Notes under the pieces: generated by a model
The model's input: the letters and a program-made list of their open reading frames with translations, nothing else
What the model was told of the DNA's origin: nothing
Database searches by the model: none
Shown: positions 1,717 to 59,037 of the stretch, one piece after another
How positions within the stretch are numbered: position 1 is the first letter of the stretch
Layout of the letters: every line of letters begins with the position of its first letter
Translations under genes and position numbers: made by a program
NCBI RefSeq assembly: GCF_003544855.1
Contig: NZ_CP032101.1
Span: 930,001-994,000, forward strand
Source of the DNA: Malaciobacter marinus
Lineage (GTDB): Bacteria; Campylobacterota; Campylobacteria; Campylobacterales; Arcobacteraceae
Reading direction: 5' to 3'
DNA: 64,000 bases

Positions 1717-3139
1717 TTTATTTACTGAAATAGTTTTCATAATGGCACTTGGTTGGTATATGATTACTAATTTGCAGTGGTATAATTATAAGCTAGAAAG
1801 AGTTATATTAAAGCATCATAAACAAGAATGGCATTTTACATATTTTGTTTTTCCTATTGTTATTTTTTATGTATTAAATGATATAGCTTTTGCTATATTC
1901 TTTTATGTATTTTATGCAGGTTTATTTTATCTTTGGAATAAAAAACTTGATAGACCACTTGTTCTTACTTCAAGAGTAAAAAGATTTTTGGCAATTTTAT
2001 TGTTTGTTACTTTTGCCATTAAAGCTTTATGTTTAGTTAGTCAATCATGCTATATCTCAGCTATTTTTATACCTTTGATTTTGGCATATGTTATCTCTAT
2101 GGTTTTAGAAAAAATCTTTTTTATATCTTTTAAAAATCAAGGTAAAAAAAGAGTTCAAGCTATGAAGAATTTGAAAATAGTAGCGATTACTGCTTCATAT
2201 GGTAAAACTTCTATAAAAAACTATTTATATCAAGTGTTAAGAAATAAATATGTTACATATAAAACTCCAAGATCTGTAAATACAATTGCAGGGATAGTTT
2301 TAGATGTAAATAAAGACTTACCATCAAATACACAAGTTTATATTGCAGAAGCTGGGGCTAGACAAGAGGGTGATATTGCAGAAATTGCAAATTTTTTAGA
2401 ACCACAATATTGTGTAATAGGAAGTGTTGGTGAACAGCATATTGAGTATTTTAAGACTTTGGAAAATATTATTAAAACTAAGTCTGAATTACTTCACTCT
2501 CCAAGGTTAAAAAAAGGTTTTGTACATGAAAGCGTACCATTAAAAAAACATCCATCAATTATTAAATTTCCAGATAATTTAAATATTACAATGAGTAATT
2601 TAGATGGCATATGGTTTGATGTTGAAATCAATGGAATAAAAGAGCACTTTCATGCTCCTTTACTTGGAAGTTTTAATGCAATAAATCTAACAGCTACTAT
2701 ATATGTAGCCCTTGAACTTGGAATGAGTTTAGAAGAGATAAAAGTAGCATTTGAAAAACTTCAACCTGTACCACATAGACTTCAATTAATTCATGCTGGT
2801 GGAAAAATAATAGTTGATGATAGTTTTAATGGTAATCTTGAGGGAATGCTTGAGGCTGTAAATATTTGCTCAACATATGAAGGTAGAAAAGTAATAGTAA
2901 CTCCAGGACTTGTAGAATCAACTGATGAAGCAAATATATTATTAGCAAAACAGATTAATGAAAATTTTGATTTAGTAATAATCACAGGAAAGCTAAATTC
3001 ACATTTATTAAGTAAAAATATTGATGAAAAAAAGGTTATTGTTTTAAAAGACAAATCAAAACTTGAAGAGTTATTAGCACAAAAAACACAATCAGGTGAT
3101 TTGATACTTTTTGCAAATGATGCACCAAACTTTATATAA
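1703..3139 (+). CDS. murF: UDP-MurNAc-tripeptide--D-Ala-D-Ala ligase
   Basis: Adds D-Ala-D-Ala to the UDP-MurNAc tripeptide, the last cytoplasmic step of peptidoglycan precursor synthesis. The 478-residue protein carries the Mur ligase P-loop as ASYGKTS (G167, K168, T169), the conserved EAGARQEGDI segment and a C-terminal ligase domain with VPHRLQ. The first 135 or so residues are hydrophobic, with about four membrane-spanning stretches; this membrane-anchored form is typical of epsilon-class MurF and makes the protein longer than enteric MurF. The start overlaps the hydrolase by 14 bases, so the three wall genes form one operon. Confidence 0.95.
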   Translation: MEYFNLFTEIVFIMALGWYMITNLQWYNYKLERVILKHHKQEWHFTYFVFPIVIFYVLNDIAFAIFFYVFYAGLFYLWNKKLDRPLVLTSRVKRFLAILLFVTFAIKALCLVSQSCYISAIFIPLILAYVISMVLEKIFFISFKNQGKKRVQAMKNLKIVAITASYGKTSIKNYLYQVLRNKYVTYKTPRSVNTIAGIVLDVNKDLPSNTQVYIAEAGARQEGDIAEIANFLEPQYCVIGSVGEQHIEYFKTLENIIKTKSELLHSPRLKKGFVHESVPLKKHPSIIKFPDNLNITMSNLDGIWFDVEINGIKEHFHAPLLGSFNAINLTATIYVALELGMSLEEIKVAFEKLQPVPHRLQLIHAGGKIIVDDSFNGNLEGMLEAVNICSTYEGRKVIVTPGLVESTDEANILLAKQINENFDLVIITGKLNSHLLSKNIDEKKVIVLKDKSKLEELLAQKTQSGDLILFANDAPNFI

Positions 3140-3166
3140 AATTTTATTTTGTGAGAGGAAATCACG

Positions 3167-3655
3167 ATGGAAAAGATATATGCCCCTTGGCGACATGAAT
3201 ATGTAACAGAAGACAAAATCAAAGGTTGTGTTTTTTGTCATATTGGGAAAAACTTAGAAGATGAAAAATTACAAGTAGTATTTAGTGATGAATTATGCTA
3301 TGTTGTGATGAATAAATATCCATATTCCCCTGGGCATATGATGGTTATTCCTTATACTCATACAGATAAAATTGAAGACTTAGATGATGAGGTTTGGTTA
3401 AGAATTAGCCTTAGAGTAAAACAAGGTGTTAAATTATTAAAAGATGTGATGAATGCACATGGGGTTAATATTGGGATGAATCTAAGTGATGCTGCTGGCG
3501 CTGGGATAGCTGAACATGTTCATTATCATTTGCTTCCTAGATGGAAAGGTGATACTAATTTTATCACAGTTATTGGGCAAACAAGAGTCTATCCTGCTGA
3601 TTTTAATGAGATATTTAACAGGCTGAAAAATAACGCTACAAAATATTTTGTTTAG
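3167..3655 (+). CDS. HIT family nucleotide hydrolase/transferase
   Basis: A 162-residue histidine-triad protein; family members hydrolyse or transfer nucleotidyl groups from substrates such as AMP-lysine or dinucleoside polyphosphates. The triad is H117-V-H119-Y-H121 followed by LLPRW, and an N-terminal C21-x2-C24 pair resembles the zinc site of longer HIT proteins. A GAGAG-like GAGIAEH lead-in precedes the triad. It lies 27 bases behind murF with a GAGAGGA ribosome site and is probably the last gene of the wall operon. The physiological substrate cannot be told from sequence. Confidence 0.9.
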   Translation: MEKIYAPWRHEYVTEDKIKGCVFCHIGKNLEDEKLQVVFSDELCYVVMNKYPYSPGHMMVIPYTHTDKIEDLDDEVWLRISLRVKQGVKLLKDVMNAHGVNIGMNLSDAAGAGIAEHVHYHLLPRWKGDTNFITVIGQTRVYPADFNEIFNRLKNNATKYFV

Positions 3656-3708
3656 ATATTATAATAATTTAATGTGAAATTTAATATAATTTCAAAACAT
3701 AAAAAAAG

Positions 3709-3780
3709 CTTAAGGTTTAAGCAGAACATAAGAGATAAATAACTACTTATGCTTCATAATTTTTATAAAATTATAGGAGT
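3709..3780. promoter_or_regulatory. Two inverted repeats upstream of pstS
   Basis: The 130-base gap before pstS holds two short dyads: GCTTAA/TTAAGC arms around 3709-3723, and CATAAG/CTTATG arms around 3728-3752. Neither is followed by a T-run, so they look more like regulator sites or leader structure than terminators. A phosphate-responsive operator would be expected here, but I cannot match either to a defined box. This is pattern only. Confidence 0.3.
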
Positions 3781-3785
3781 AAGTT

Positions 3786-4601
3786 TTGAAAAAATTACTA
3801 CTTACATTAATCACACTCTCTTTAACTTTTTTAAATGCATCAGATTTAAAAGTATTTGAAAATTTAAAAGGTACTTTAAATATAGCTGGTGGAACAGCTC
3901 ATATAAAATGTGAAAAAGAAGCTATCAAAAACATAATGAGAAAATATCCAGATATTACTATTTCAATTGCAGGTGGAGGTAGTGGGATTGGTATAAAACA
4001 AGTTAGTTCAAAAATCATTGACCTTGCAAATTCAGGAAGAAAACCAACACAAAAAGAGATTAAAAATGGAGATTTAAAACTATTTCGTTTTGCAATTGAT
4101 GGAATAGGTGTTATTGTTAATCCTAAGTTAAATATTGATTCTTTAACAACAAAACAATTACAAGATATTTTTAGTGGAAAAATAACTAATTTTAAAGAGT
4201 TAGGTTTATCAAATGCACCTATAAATTTATATACAAGAGATGAGTCTAGTGCTACAAGAAAAGTTTTTTGGAAAAGAGCTTTAAAAAAATCACCTATATC
4301 AAATAAAGCAAGAGTTGTATCATCAAATGCAGCTATGAAAACAGCTATTTCAAAAGATAAAAATGCTATTGGTATTATCTCTTTAGGTGTAGCAAATGAT
4401 AGTGTAAAGTTATTGAATATAAATGGTGTTAAACCAACAGTTGAAAATATAAATAATGACAGTTACAATGTAGCAAGAGGTTTATATTTATTAAGTAGTG
4501 GTGAGCCATCAAAATTAGCAAGTGCATATATCTCTTATTTAAGAAGTAATGAGGGCGCAAAAATAGTATCAAAATATGGTTTTATTCCAATAAATGAATA
4601 A
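3786..4601 (+). CDS. pstS: Phosphate ABC transporter substrate-binding protein
   Basis: Periplasmic phosphate receptor of the PstSCAB importer, 271 residues. It has a Lys-rich N-terminus and hydrophobic signal peptide of about 18 residues, the phosphate-binding GGGSGIGI region and the TRDESSATR motif, both characteristic of PstS-type receptors. Translation starts at TTG behind AGGAG. The 3' end overlaps pstC by 8 bases, so expression is coupled. No phoU, phoB or phoR lies beside the operon, so its regulator must be encoded elsewhere. Confidence 0.92.
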   Translation: MKKLLLTLITLSLTFLNASDLKVFENLKGTLNIAGGTAHIKCEKEAIKNIMRKYPDITISIAGGGSGIGIKQVSSKIIDLANSGRKPTQKEIKNGDLKLFRFAIDGIGVIVNPKLNIDSLTTKQLQDIFSGKITNFKELGLSNAPINLYTRDESSATRKVFWKRALKKSPISNKARVVSSNAAMKTAISKDKNAIGIISLGVANDSVKLLNINGVKPTVENINNDSYNVARGLYLLSSGEPSKLASAYISYLRSNEGAKIVSKYGFIPINE

Positions 4602-53459: not shown

Positions 53460-54380
53460 ATGGCAATTTATACATGTGGACACACAACTCCTGATTCAGA
53501 CTCAATATGTTCAGCTATCTCTTTAGCATATTTATTAAATAAAATAGGGCGTGAGGCAATTCCAGCACGACAAGGACCAGTTTCGCCTGAAACTCAATTT
53601 ATTTTAAATAGATTTGGTTTTGAAGCACCAGAACTTAAAACAGAGTTTGCTGGTGAAGAGATTTTTATTACTGATTATTCAGATAGAGGTCAAGCTCCAA
53701 AAGATATTGATGAGGCTACTATTGTTGGTATTGTTGATCATCATAAATTAGGAGATTTAACTACTTCAACACCACTTGAATGTTGGATTAGACCTGTTGG
53801 TTGTACTAACACAATTGTAAAAGAGATGTATGATTATCATGGTGTAGAAATTCCTGCAAATATTGCTGGTGTTATGCTTTGTGCTATTTTAAGTGATACT
53901 GTTATTTTTAAATCACCAACATGTACAGATATTGATATTAAAATAGTTAGAGAACTTGCACAAATTGCTGGTGTTGAAGACTTTGGTGCATTGGGTATGG
54001 AGATGTTTAAAGTAAAATCAGCAGTTGATGGAGTTCCTGTAAGAGAACTTATCTTAAGAGATTACAAGCCATTTGATATGCATGGAAGTGCTGTTGGTAT
54101 TGGACAACTCGAAGTTGTTGATTTGGCAATTTTTGATAATGTAAAAGATAAATTACAAGCTGATTTAGATGCGCTTAGAGTTGAAAATGATTTACATACT
54201 GCTTGTTTACTTTTAACTGATATTATGAAAGAGGGTTCTGAAGTACTTGTTTCATCAGAAGATACATCTGTATTTGAAAAAGCATTTGATGTAAAATTAG
54301 AAGATGGAAAAGTTTGGTTAGATGGTTGTCTTTCAAGAAAAAAACAAATTATCCCTTTCTTAGAACCAGCATTTGCATAA
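53460..54380 (+). CDS. ppaC: Manganese-dependent inorganic pyrophosphatase
   Basis: Hydrolyses pyrophosphate to drive biosynthesis; family II (DHH) enzyme of 306 residues. H8-x3-D12-x-D14 in GHTTPDSDS, Asp in ITDYSDRG and the DHH motif VDHHKLGD are metal ligands; the C-terminal SRKKQIIP contains the substrate-binding Arg-Lys-Lys. It has its own terminator downstream and is divergent from ferritin. Confidence 0.96.
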   Translation: MAIYTCGHTTPDSDSICSAISLAYLLNKIGREAIPARQGPVSPETQFILNRFGFEAPELKTEFAGEEIFITDYSDRGQAPKDIDEATIVGIVDHHKLGDLTTSTPLECWIRPVGCTNTIVKEMYDYHGVEIPANIAGVMLCAILSDTVIFKSPTCTDIDIKIVRELAQIAGVEDFGALGMEMFKVKSAVDGVPVRELILRDYKPFDMHGSAVGIGQLEVVDLAIFDNVKDKLQADLDALRVENDLHTACLLLTDIMKEGSEVLVSSEDTSVFEKAFDVKLEDGKVWLDGCLSRKKQIIPFLEPAFA

Positions 54381-54413: not shown

Positions 54414-54453
54414 AAGAGCTAAATTTTACTTTTTAGTTTTAAAAAGTTAAGAT

Positions 54454-54477
54454 AAAAAGCAAGCAAACGACTTGCTT
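54454..54477 (-). terminator. Minus-strand terminator-like hairpin
   Basis: On the minus strand AAGCAAG (54477-54471) pairs with CTTGCTT (54463-54457) across TCGTTTG, followed by T-rich sequence at 54458-54454. It would end a transcript coming from the deaminase gene, or a separate RNA covering the structured region just upstream. Confidence 0.5.
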
Positions 54478-54560
54478 ACAGTTAGATATTTGTTGTCTAC
54501 CTTGCTTGTATGCACTTTCTTCGAGAAAACTGATAAAGAGTGCATACAGTAGTATTATTC
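54454..54560 (-). ncRNA. Candidate structured RNA beside the deaminase gene
   Basis: This stretch is richer in GC than its surroundings and has nested structure but no credible frame. GTATGCACT (54508-54516) pairs perfectly with AGTGCATAC (54539-54547), enclosing a second small hairpin (TTCT/AGAA around TCG), and a separate hairpin at 54457-54477 ends it. The minus strand gives a terminator at its 3' end, so I favour that strand; a weak promoter-like TTTACT (54425-54430) and TAAGAT (54448-54453) pair would instead drive the plus strand. AvcD deaminases are controlled by a small RNA, AvcI, but that lies on the 5' side. Expression is unproven. Confidence 0.35.
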
Positions 54561-54873
54561 TAAAGGTACAAATAGTTTCGTGCGTAAGTGAAAATAAACA
54601 TATAGCTTCTAGCTTCATCAAAGTTTAGGAAGAAAAAAAGTTTAAACTATCATTTGTGAATTTATTAAATAGAAGTTACAAGTTTAAATAAATCAAAAAG
54701 TGAGAGAGAAGATAATTGAAGAATATTTAATAGATAATATAGAATAATATTAAATGGTAGAATAAAACTTGAGGCGAGAAATAATATGGGTACAGTTTAA
54801 TAACCAGAACTTTTAAATATCTTTCAATGACACTTAAAAGTTTGATATTATCAATAGTTTTATTCTCTCTATG
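54561..54873. other. Gene-free stretch between structured region and deaminase
   Basis: About 310 AT-rich bases with stops in every frame. The only pattern noted is the palindrome TTGATATTATCAA at 54842-54854, immediately beyond the deaminase stop. No gene, promoter or repeat is supported otherwise. Confidence 0.5.
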
Positions 54874-56823
54874 TTATGTATTTAATGCTTTTAATTCATC
54901 TTTATATGAAAATATTGGTTCATATAGTTTTTGATAAGCCAATCCAATTGCACCTCTAAAATGCACCATCTCTATATCATTAATACCAATATCAAATACT
55001 TGTTCTTTTGAAATATCAGGATATGCTTCAATATAAACTATTCTTTTCATTCCTAACTGATATGCTTTTTTTGCACATAAGAAGCAAGGTGAAGCAGTAG
55101 TAAATAATTGACCTCCAATTATTTCAGTATTTCCATATTTAGAAGCTTGGAGAAATGCATTTTCTTCTGCGTGTAAAGAACGTGTATAAACCTGATTTTT
55201 TTCACCATCTATTTTATTTTGTATTTCTTTAAAGCAAAATGAATCATTTAAACCTTGTTTATTAGATAGTTTAAAATCATTTTCATATATAGATTTAAAT
55301 TCTTTTTTCTTTCTTAGTTTATTTTTTTCATAATTACTATAATCTAACAAAGAGGTATTGCTTAATAGTTCATTGTGACTTCGTAATAAACATGGTATTT
55401 GACCTTCTGGAACTTCATTCCAACCTACAGCTCTTATAGAATCATATTTATTTAATACCACTGCACCTACCTGCCTTGATATACAACCAGAGTTAAATTT
55501 AGCATTTAAAGCTAATTGCATAATTATTTCATCTTTTGTTGGTGTAATAATTCCAGGATGTACTATTAAGCTTAAATATTTAAAAACTTGTTTGTATAAA
55601 GTATCTTTCTCATCATTATTATTATCAATATAAATATCGCTTCTTTGTATACATTCAATAATATTTTGTGAATTAAAATCTTTTTTAGAGTCTAATGAAC
55701 CTTTTTGTTTATCCGTATTATCTTTATTTAATTCTTTCTTATGGATTGATTTAATATCTATGTTAGTATCTATAAACCTTTCATATATTATTTCATCTGT
55801 AGCATGAATTGAAAATGTATAGTAAGCTGAATATCTTTCTTTAAAAAATAATATTTCAAATGGATTTTTTAAAGAATCTATTGCAATATAACAATATTTA
55901 TTTTTCTTCTTTGATTGTTTTCTATAAGATTTAATTAGTAAATTAATATATTCTGGTAATTGAAAAATATCTATTTTTTCTCTTACTAAGTCACCAATTA
56001 CTTGTAGTTGTGGTATTGATAGTTCTTTAGATTTTCTTTTTTCTAAAATAATATTATTATATTTGTTATATAGCTTAATAAAAATTGAACTTTTATTTTT
56101 GGCTAAGTATTCTAGTACTTTACTTATGATTTCTCGTTTTTTTTTAAACTTATTTAGTATTTTATTTTTATCGTTTATTGGAGAATTTATCTTCTTATAT
56201 TTTACTTTTTTAAAAAGTTTATTTTGAGATTTTAACTTTGAACCAAATAAAGTATTTATTTCTTTAATTAGATTTTCAAGATTTTGATTTAATAATTTTT
56301 TTTCATACTTATTTTTTTTATCTTTAATATATTTTAATACAAGTGATTTATTTTTATCAGAACAATTTTCAATTAAATTATTTAAATAGTATTCAAAATT
56401 AGATTTATTATCTAACTTATTATTTATATCAAAACTTATAAATGCTTTATAAAGATTTAATAATTTGTTAGATTCTTCTTTTATTTCATTTTTATCTTCA
56501 TGTGTTTTTTCCAGAAGTTCTTTTAATATTTTAATTTGTGTAAAGAATATACTTTTTTCAAATATAAATAACATTATAATTATTGTTGATGGTTTAATAA
56601 TCTCAAATTTCTTATCAATAAAATTTTTATTTGCAAAGTTTTTAATAATATTATCTTTTCTATTTTGAATTGATTTATCTTCGTGATTTGTAGCACTATA
56701 ATTTGCATAACCATTTTTTAATATATTTGAAATTGTTGTACAACCACTACCTGTTTTTCCAGTTAATCCAATTACAATAAAGTTATTTTTTTGATGATAT
56801 ATGTTTTTTATAAGTTTTTTCAT
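54874..56823 (-). CDS. AvcD-like P-loop/cytidine deaminase fusion, candidate antiphage
   Basis: A 649-residue protein with an N-terminal P-loop kinase-like domain and a C-terminal dCMP/cytidine deaminase domain. The P-loop is G22-KTGS-G27-C28-T29, with Cys where the usual Lys stands. The deaminase zinc site is H551-A-E553 and P579-C580-x2-C583, with SGCISRQVGAVV before it. This architecture is that of AvcD, which depletes dCTP/dCMP pools during phage infection and is restrained by the RNA AvcI. It is longer than V. cholerae AvcD (about 530), with a Lys/Asn-rich helical insert around residues 95-260. Start ATG 56823 follows AAAGGA. Defence activity is inferred from family. Confidence 0.8.
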   Translation of the reverse strand: MKKLIKNIYHQKNNFIVIGLTGKTGSGCTTISNILKNGYANYSATNHEDKSIQNRKDNIIKNFANKNFIDKKFEIIKPSTIIIMLFIFEKSIFFTQIKILKELLEKTHEDKNEIKEESNKLLNLYKAFISFDINNKLDNKSNFEYYLNNLIENCSDKNKSLVLKYIKDKKNKYEKKLLNQNLENLIKEINTLFGSKLKSQNKLFKKVKYKKINSPINDKNKILNKFKKKREIISKVLEYLAKNKSSIFIKLYNKYNNIILEKRKSKELSIPQLQVIGDLVREKIDIFQLPEYINLLIKSYRKQSKKKNKYCYIAIDSLKNPFEILFFKERYSAYYTFSIHATDEIIYERFIDTNIDIKSIHKKELNKDNTDKQKGSLDSKKDFNSQNIIECIQRSDIYIDNNNDEKDTLYKQVFKYLSLIVHPGIITPTKDEIIMQLALNAKFNSGCISRQVGAVVLNKYDSIRAVGWNEVPEGQIPCLLRSHNELLSNTSLLDYSNYEKNKLRKKKEFKSIYENDFKLSNKQGLNDSFCFKEIQNKIDGEKNQVYTRSLHAEENAFLQASKYGNTEIIGGQLFTTASPCFLCAKKAYQLGMKRIVYIEAYPDISKEQVFDIGINDIEMVHFRGAIGLAYQKLYEPIFSYKDELKALNT

Positions 56824-56840
56824 TTAATGTTATCCTTTAT

Positions 56841-56878
56841 TATTTATGAACTACACACAACTATTTATCAAACACACA
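56841..56878. repeat. Two imperfect tandem repeats upstream of the deaminase gene
   Basis: The plus strand reads TATTTAT then ACACACA twice: 56841-56859 (19 bases) and 56862-56878 (17 bases), in the short leader between the agmatinase-family gene and the deaminase start. Tandem direct repeats here could be an operator, or could recall RNA-antitoxin repeats, but two copies are too few to decide. Confidence 0.3.
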
Positions 56879-56926
56879 TTTTATATAAAAGACCCTTAAA
56901 TCATATAATAATTATATTTCTTTCCT

Positions 56927-57988
56927 TTAATTATACGATATTTTATTTTGACTTGCTAGTAAGGCTGCGCTAAGTTGGTATAAAATTCTTGCGCCGACGT
57001 TTTCATCCCAGTCGTTTTTACTAATTCCTACTTCACATAAATCAAATCCTATTATATTTCTACCGCTTTTTACTACCATAAAAATAAGATGTTCTAATTG
57101 ACTATATCTAAGTCCTCCTGGAACTGGTGTTCCTGTATTTGGGCAGTTAATTGGTTCTAAGCCATCAATATCAATAGATAAATATACATTTTGTGGAAGT
57201 TGCTCAATAAAAGGAAAATATACCTCTTCTAGTGACTTTCCACATGCAAGTTTTTCTTGCATATGTGTATCATATAAACAATCAGCTTTTTTTCCGTACT
57301 TTTTTATTCTCAAAGCTTCTTCACTACTATAATCTCTAATTCCTATTTGAATAAGATTTGAGATTTTGTCACATTCATTCATGACATTATAAAAAATAGA
57401 AGCATGGGAATAAGTAAAACCCTCATATGCTTTTCTTAAATCATGGTGTGCATCAACATGCAATATTCCAAAGGCTTCATCTTGAGTATCATTTAAAGCT
57501 TTGATAAGTCCCAGTGGGCAAGAGTGATCACCACCTACAACTGCTACAAATTTACCTTTTTTGATTTGTTTGATTGATTTTTTATAAACAGAGTCATTTA
57601 AGGTTTTAGAAGCTTCATTTACAAAGTTTAATGCTTTTTTCTTTGTAGTTCCTTTTTCAAGTGCTTGAATTACTTTCAAAGCTTTTTTTCTAGCTTTATT
57701 ACTTAATTTTAATAAACTTTTATCAGTTTCAAGCATAGCAATTCCAGCAGTATAAGGCTTAATATAGTGGTATGTTTCCACATCAAGTTGATGACTTGAA
57801 ATTCTTATAGCATCAGGTGCTTTTGCTGTTCCTTCTCCAAATGAAACAGTTGCTTCCCAAGGAACAGGAAGTAAAATTAAACTAGCTTCTTTGGGATCTA
57901 ATCTTCCACCAATAAAACCATCATCTTCCATTGGAGGTAAGCCTAATTCCAATACTTTTATCTCTTCTTTTAAAGTTCTATAAGACAT
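56927..57988 (-). CDS. speB: Agmatinase/arginase family ureohydrolase
   Basis: A 353-residue binuclear manganese ureohydrolase. Metal ligands appear as His in GGDHSCPLGL, the Asp/His set in HVDAHHDLR, and the Asp pair in SIDIDGLEP. The FGEGTAKAPDAIR segment is also typical. Agmatinase (putrescine formation) is the likeliest activity, but arginase or a guanidine-type ureohydrolase is possible. ATG 57988 is chosen over TTG 57991 because AGGAG is better spaced. It is longer than typical SpeB by an N-terminal extension. Confidence 0.85.
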   Translation of the reverse strand: MSYRTLKEEIKVLELGLPPMEDDGFIGGRLDPKEASLILLPVPWEATVSFGEGTAKAPDAIRISSHQLDVETYHYIKPYTAGIAMLETDKSLLKLSNKARKKALKVIQALEKGTTKKKALNFVNEASKTLNDSVYKKSIKQIKKGKFVAVVGGDHSCPLGLIKALNDTQDEAFGILHVDAHHDLRKAYEGFTYSHASIFYNVMNECDKISNLIQIGIRDYSSEEALRIKKYGKKADCLYDTHMQEKLACGKSLEEVYFPFIEQLPQNVYLSIDIDGLEPINCPNTGTPVPGGLRYSQLEHLIFMVVKSGRNIIGFDLCEVGISKNDWDENVGARILYQLSAALLASQNKISYN

Positions 57989-58017
57989 CAATTTCTCCTA
58001 TTAAATTATCTATTCTA

Positions 58018-58539
58018 TTAAATTTTACTTTCAGCCCAATCAGAAAAACTTGGATGATTTAATTTGGCAATTTTAGTTAATTCTTCTGGGTTTATATGTT
58101 TAACACCAAAGTGCTCATTTACTAGTTTTTTTAAAAGAGTCCAATTTAAATCTTTTTTCTCTTTTGAATTAGGCTCTATCCATGAGCCACTAAAAAATAA
58201 AAAGCCTGAAGCCATTTGTTTAACAAACTCTGTAATAGATGAAGAAACAAGATAAGCATCACCCTCAGAATCCATAAAAACAACAGGCGGTTCTGTTTTT
58301 AGTTTTGGATAAAACCATAAAAGAAACATTGAGCCACTTGCATCTTTACCAAACTGAATAAAACTATCACCAGAAGATGACCAAGTTTCATTGCCAAACC
58401 AATATTTAAGTGTTTCTTCCAATTGGGTTTTACTAGCTTGATAAAACTCAAAATCTATAGGCCAAGATATAATCTCTTTTTCACACAACTCTTTTAAATA
58501 CTCTAATGATTCTAAAGAGTTATTGTTTAATCTGTTCAT
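58018..58539 (-). CDS. Possible SUKH/SMI1-KNR4-like protein
   Basis: A 173-residue soluble protein whose central part (FIQFGKDASGSMFLLWFYP, then PVVFMDSEGDAYLVSSSITEFVKQM) has the strand order and conserved Gly/Asp pattern of the SMI1/KNR4 (SUKH) fold. That fold is common in immunity proteins of contact-dependent toxins, but also in housekeeping proteins. No toxin gene is adjacent. It is 30 bases upstream of the agmatinase-like gene on the same strand. Assignment is tentative. Confidence 0.5.
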   Translation of the reverse strand: MNRLNNNSLESLEYLKELCEKEIISWPIDFEFYQASKTQLEETLKYWFGNETWSSSGDSFIQFGKDASGSMFLLWFYPKLKTEPPVVFMDSEGDAYLVSSSITEFVKQMASGFLFFSGSWIEPNSKEKKDLNWTLLKKLVNEHFGVKHINPEELTKIAKLNHPSFSDWAESKI

Positions 58540-58596: not shown

Positions 58597-59037
58597 TTAT
58601 TCAGTATCACCAAAGTTAGCAAAAGCATTTTCTATATTTGGAATACTTTTATATCTAGTATTCGTAAGTCTTACTTTTTTAGTGTTTAAATCACATATTG
58701 CAATTCTAAAATTTGATCCTATAAAAGGTTCTACAACACAAATAATTTTATCTTCAACTTGTCTTGTTGTGTAAATAGTACCTTGAAGAGAATTAAAAAA
58801 ATATTTTGGATAACTTAAGGGTGTAATCTCAACTATATCAATAGTTTCATCATTTTCAATAGTTTGCAATATATCCATTGCATCTTCATAACTATCAAAT
58901 TGAATGCACCAGTCATCAAAGATTTTATTAAAATGTTCTAAATCTTCATCTAGAAATCCACCTGCTAATGATTGTAAAGTAAAAATTGCCACTAAAACAC
59001 CTTGAAATAAATATAAATTAATATTTGATTTTAACAT
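58597..59037 (-). CDS. Unknown protein with N-terminal signal-like helix
   Basis: A 146-residue protein whose first 25 residues form a hydrophobic segment (signal peptide or anchor ending near LAGG), followed by an acidic alpha/beta domain with Cys in DDWCIQ, KIICVV and IAICDL. No motif is recognised. It is 57 bases upstream of the SUKH-like gene on the same strand and divergent from selO. Confidence 0.55.
   Translation of the reverse strand: MLKSNINLYLFQGVLVAIFTLQSLAGGFLDEDLEHFNKIFDDWCIQFDSYEDAMDILQTIENDETIDIVEITPLSYPKYFFNSLQGTIYTTRQVEDKIICVVEPFIGSNFRIAICDLNTKKVRLTNTRYKSIPNIENAFANFGDTE

Follow-up and report, generated by a model that had tools for sequence, protein, structure and literature searches.

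The deaminase AvcD converts dCTP and dCMP into dUTP and dUMP, and it is kept off by a labile RNA, AvcI, that is lost once a phage stops host transcription (PMC10511110). The window, a 64,000-nt stretch of the Malaciobacter marinus genome, carries on its minus strand (54874..56823) a gene that an earlier note had read as a member of the AvcD family with an additional insert and as a candidate phage-defense gene. The question raised by this locus is whether its product is an AvcD in the narrow sense and, if it is not, what sort of enzyme it is and how it might be held in check in a healthy cell. To answer it, we compare the gene, its predicted fold, its relatives and its surroundings with those of AvcD and of the ordinary dCMP deaminases.

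The Gene and Its Predicted Fold

The open reading frame has an ATG start and 649 intact codons, and all the active-site residues are present. The deaminase zinc site (residues 551-586; 55066..55173, minus strand) comprises HAE at 551-553, within LHAEENAF, and PCFLC at 579-583, within SPCFLC; the positions of H551, E553, C580 and C583 are invariant in all 14 sequences of alignment A3. The loop that begins at residue 19, GLTGKTGSGCTT, is P-loop-like (GLTGKTGSGCT, residues 19-29; 56737..56769, minus strand), and its GKTGSGCT stretch has C28 at the position of the Walker Lys. Between these two sites lie a helical insert (residues 95-260; 56044..56541, minus strand), 38% of which is Lys or Asn, and an IDSLKNPFE motif (residues 315-323; 55855..55881, minus strand) that reads IDAIRNPFE/YE in the long clade described below. 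The zinc site, the Cys-bearing loop and the Lys/Asn-rich stretch are thus all where the earlier note had placed them. The composition of the insert is partly explained by its AT-rich coding DNA, which has a GC content of 15% overall and of 9% at third codon positions, the latter the same as in the remaining gene.

Structure prediction, which the note had proposed as a check, recovered two folds. In the AlphaFold2 model the core domains are fair and the insert is poor (pLDDT about 30-45). The model aligns with the dCMP deaminase 2w4l (Z 17.6, rmsd 3.2, 146 residues); it also matches the adenylate-kinase-related 3lw7 over 164 residues in the range 16-421 (Z 14.8, rmsd 2.2). The fold of the insert was taken instead from a 576-aa relative, L122, whose model has a mean pLDDT of 79 and a helical stretch at about residues 81-230 with block pLDDT of 74-92. 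Since the alignment of this second model with 3lw7 (Z 15.9, rmsd 2.0, 169/170 residues) spans model residues 17-344, the helical stretch as modeled splits the kinase-like domain, interrupting it after the P-loop helix. In the nucleotide monophosphate kinases, the NMP-binding helices occupy this same place. The window protein is accordingly predicted to begin with an adenylate-kinase-like domain, which the insert divides in two, and to end with a dCMP-deaminase domain. The dCMP deaminases of phages T4 (1vq2) and S-TIM5 (4p9c) and of human (2w4l) share the fold and the zinc motif of its C-terminal domain; unlike the window protein, they are metabolic enzymes without a kinase-like domain. The N-terminal domain is modeled with the same fold as the adenylate-kinase-related SSO1041 (3lw7, 3h0k; Z 14.8-15.9), from which the window protein differs by its fused deaminase, by the replacement of the loop Lys with Cys and by the inserted helical domain.

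A Long-Insert Clade of Anti-Phage Deaminases

The protein matches Pfam dCMP_cyt_deam_1 (E=1e-14), the PADLOC dCTPase model (E=8e-115) and, over residues 15-641, the NCBIfam equivalog NF041025, "anti-phage dCTP deaminase" (E=4e-102). Its best full-length matches are these defense deaminases and not the ordinary dCMP deaminases that, according to the earlier note, would have spoken against a defense gene. The NF041025 score of 342 bits lies under the curated cut-off of 400 bits, and function must therefore be carried over from diverged relatives. We rejected the insert as the sole cause of the shortfall, since deletion of residues 91-262 gives 354 bits, still below 400; the low score is due to divergence and not to the insert alone. 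Within the long clade, G074 and the Pantoea protein pass the cut-off and the others fail.

Relatives were gathered by profile and tblastn searches from cyanobacteria, Pantoea, Aeromonas, Lachnospira, Dyadobacter, E. coli prophages and viral contigs. A single-sequence query found no close viral relatives of the window protein, the phage records giving distant ones only, and a profile search of IMG/VR returned 22 full-length long-clade ORFs. The loop Cys is present in all nine aligned long forms (alignment A1) and in every one of the 22 viral-contig ORFs except L138, which has Ser. The long and short groups are set apart in the tree with a support of 100/100, a value to be read with caution as the branches are long, and the two forms are 21-27% identical.

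The earlier note had described the insert as missing from the shorter AvcD proteins, and this is borne out by the distance between the loop and the IDAIRNPFE-type motif: 104-106 residues in the short AvcD-type proteins (n=3), about 195-255 in the long clade and 296-304 both in the window protein and in G033, the homologue nearest to it (61% identity). The insert is nonetheless not special to the window gene, because its core, together with the loop Cys, marks the whole clade. By these sequence comparisons the insert is a clade character, longer by several dozen residues in the sub-lineage of the window protein and G033. The further suggestion that it may bind RNA finds no support: its net charge is not conserved, with clade members anywhere between -8 and +22, and a basic RNA-binding domain was rejected on this ground.

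The long forms from Pantoea (WP_129063485), E. coli (WP_001206704) and Geminocystis (WP_066349598), annotated as "anti-phage dCTP deaminase", resemble the window protein in their Cys loop, helical insert, deaminase domain and mobile context, and belong to the same clade; the window protein and G033 differ from them by about 80 extra insert residues and a lower NF041025 score. The long clade is therefore already known to the databases. Our literature search, whose scope did not extend to the primary Nat Microbiol 2022 reports, found no long-clade member with a published activity. A homologue on a Geminocystis plasmid (L032, 4350-6233) has Trp at the C580 position (ASPWELC) and is, from its sequence, likely inactive; adjoining it (2711-4030) is a gene for a dGTP triphosphohydrolase, an enzyme of another nucleotide-depletion type.

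With AvcD of Vibrio and of E. coli ETEC (L036, on the ETEC plasmid p58), the window protein shares an N-terminal P-loop-type domain, a C-terminal zinc dC-nucleotide deaminase with the HAE...PCxxC signature, and an accessory or mobile location. The identity, however, is 23-27%, the P-loop region of AvcD is degenerate in a different way (GFAGCGMKT), and the approximately 105 residues between its loop and its I(D)xLKxPEE motif leave it without the helical insert. Of the family assignment in the earlier note, the broader part stands: NF041025 and PADLOC place the protein in the anti-phage dCTP deaminase superfamily. The narrower part does not, as the tree puts the protein in the long clade, sister to AvcD proper. 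Sequence comparison thus identifies the gene as a long-insert variant of the anti-phage dCTP/dCMP deaminases, belonging to the long clade, and not as AvcD in the narrow sense.

An Accessory Insertion and the Context of Its Relatives

The gene lies in a segment of about 2.48 kb (54426..56926, minus strand) that is absent from the sister species G001, as revealed by blastn and global alignment with the corresponding locus (L050). There, the flanking pyrophosphatase and agmatinase genes (53460-54380 and 56927-57991 in the window) are joined in an empty site, only 65 nt apart. The blastn match stops at window position 54441 and restarts at 56926; by global alignment, the left edge falls near 54425 and the right one at about 56905-56926. 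So clean an empty site supports the idea, already put forward in the note, of a small insertion between housekeeping genes. The inserted DNA contains the deaminase gene alone and noncoding sequence, with no other defense gene beside it at this locus. Two small ORFs nearby (58018-58539 and 58597-59037, minus strand), without a Pfam or PADLOC match, lie in DNA that the sister species also has and are therefore outside the insertion.

The deaminase gene has a GC content of 21%, its flanking genes one of 32-33%. Its distribution is sparse: of six congeners, its own genome alone has it; a full-length member of either clade is found in four of 104 family genomes, three of them long forms; and among 397 evenly sampled genomes of the phylum, searched at E 1e-50, only its own has one. 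The window gene is an accessory gene.

The relatives occupy comparable surroundings. The G033 homologue is part of a likely defense island (L055, 2613-18726) with an integrase at its head, tyrosine-type as named from its sequence, followed by an NB-ARC protein, an Mrr-like nuclease, the deaminase, PDC-S21, a KAP-like ATPase, and a type II restriction enzyme and methylase. In E. coli the long form occurs in six of 5426 complete genomes, one copy being frameshifted (G5), and in all three loci opened (L198, L199, L208) it lies between a P2-like prophage integrase, which it adjoins, and sequence with the 3' end of ssrA. This 3' end, an attachment site, is what we read in the conserved DNA upstream of several prophage-borne long-clade loci; ARAGORN found no complete gene in that DNA.

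The window gene therefore has the features of the anti-phage dCTP/dCMP deaminases in the broad sense: a complete H-x-E ... P-C-x-x-C site in a C-terminal deaminase, an N-terminal nucleotide-kinase-like domain with a fold like that of 3lw7 and a Cys for the Walker Lys, and an accessory position on mobile or defense DNA, as judged from the empty site, the single occurrence among congeners and the defense island and prophages of its relatives. On this comparison, it is probably a real defense gene of a known kind.

The Upstream Spacer and the Hairpin Repeat

The insertion is bordered, 3' of the gene, by a copy (54426..54664, minus strand) of a structured Arcobacteraceae repeat of about 200 nt; this copy is diverged (69% identity) and has a terminator-like hairpin inside it (54479-54457). 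The repeat is dispersed in 33 of 104 family genomes. In 32 aligned copies (alignment A5) it forms a long hairpin in which 95.3% of cells are paired, and 29 of the 40 pairs have changed on both sides, against a mean of 13.5 in shuffled alignments (none of 500 shuffles as high) and 8-11 in slid versions. Copies adjoin PDC-M62AB pairs (own genome and G038), an AbiZ-like gene, a GmrSD enzyme, PDC-S31 and HNH genes, and also housekeeping genes. Two other copies in the own genome are at L067 7222-7447 and 7957-8195. Beside recQ in the same genome, a PDC-M62A/PDC-M62B pair (a Septu-like AAA ATPase and an HNH protein; L067 4560-7227, about 2478559-2481226 of C1) has been inserted; it is missing from the same place in the sister species and ends exactly at a repeat copy. 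Two accessory insertions of this genome thus have the repeat at an edge. An integron attC site was rejected, the copies being dispersed and the genome having no integron integrase. The repeat is not an Rfam family and had no match in plasmids, and one strict pattern of it was absent from viral contigs. Y1 transposases are present in 31 of 104 genomes, including this one. The repeat may be a mobile terminator, a recombination site or a MITE.

Homology to AvcD and this strongly structured element directly 3' of the gene are what might be expected of a true AvcID-like type III toxin-antitoxin, in which an unrecognized RNA antitoxin would overlap the upstream gene or reside in the hairpin repeat. 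The rest of the evidence makes this unlikely. The spacer upstream of the deaminase gene (56824..56926, minus strand) is 103 nt long, whereas the AvcI transcript of V. parahaemolyticus is about 280 nt (PMC10511110); an AvcI-sized RNA gene would not fit into it, and the window locus differs from AvcD in this respect. The spacer, searched against Rfam and compared with the region upstream of the G033 homologue, which it does not resemble, contained no recognizable AvcI-type RNA antitoxin. With G074 there are 68 nt in common (72%, E 6e-4), a weak and AT-rich match, and the upstream conservation in prophage-borne relatives is that of ssrA. As for the 3' repeat, it trails many unrelated genes and so is no dedicated antitoxin. 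Because the spacer is too short and shares nothing with that of G033, AvcID-type control is not transferable to the window protein.

Probable Function of the Window Gene

A decaying or inactive defense gene would be in keeping with the very low GC content, with the rapid divergence of the insert (31-34% identity to G033, against 77% for the deaminase domain) and with the broken-looking copies elsewhere in the clade, such as the Geminocystis C to W change and the E. coli G5 frameshift. Against this stand the intact frame with every active-site residue in place and the pattern of codon differences from G033 outside the insert, which are concentrated at position 3 (0.38-0.41, vs 0.09-0.15 at position 2); decay is, in our estimation, quite improbable. 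Least credible of all is a metabolic dCMP/dCTP deaminase supplying dUMP for thymidylate synthesis: the catalytic domain is the same, but the gene is missing in five of six congeners and is not the conserved, single-domain gene that a housekeeping enzyme of the genus would be, its relatives are found in mobile and defense contexts, and nearly all family genomes retain a separate small deaminase (in this one a 145-aa gene, L002), which fits the metabolic role.

We consider it likely that the window gene encodes a horizontally acquired, single-gene anti-phage enzyme of the long-insert clade that acts by nucleotide depletion. Upon infection, the C-terminal zinc deaminase, to which a catalytic role is given because of its homology to AvcD, would convert dCTP and dCMP into dUTP and dUMP, and this loss of dC nucleotides would starve phage DNA synthesis. 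The adenylate-kinase-like domain at the N terminus, lacking the catalytic Lys and split by the helical domain, would most likely be a ligand-binding regulator rather than a kinase, and would hold the deaminase off until infection. More tentatively, the long clade could be a one-protein system in which the Lys-less kinase-like domain and the insert directly sense a nucleotide or a phage-made cue and switch the deaminase on, thereby replacing the RNA antitoxin; we regard this as possible and well short of probable.

In the AvcID system, the off-state of the enzyme in healthy cells is explained by an RNA antitoxin. A widespread sister clade offers a ready comparison for control within the protein: at the locus examined there is no space for such an RNA, but the kinase-like domain is modified and a helical insert is present. 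The hairpin repeat that borders the insertion may, separately, hint at how small defense insertions move among the Arcobacteraceae.
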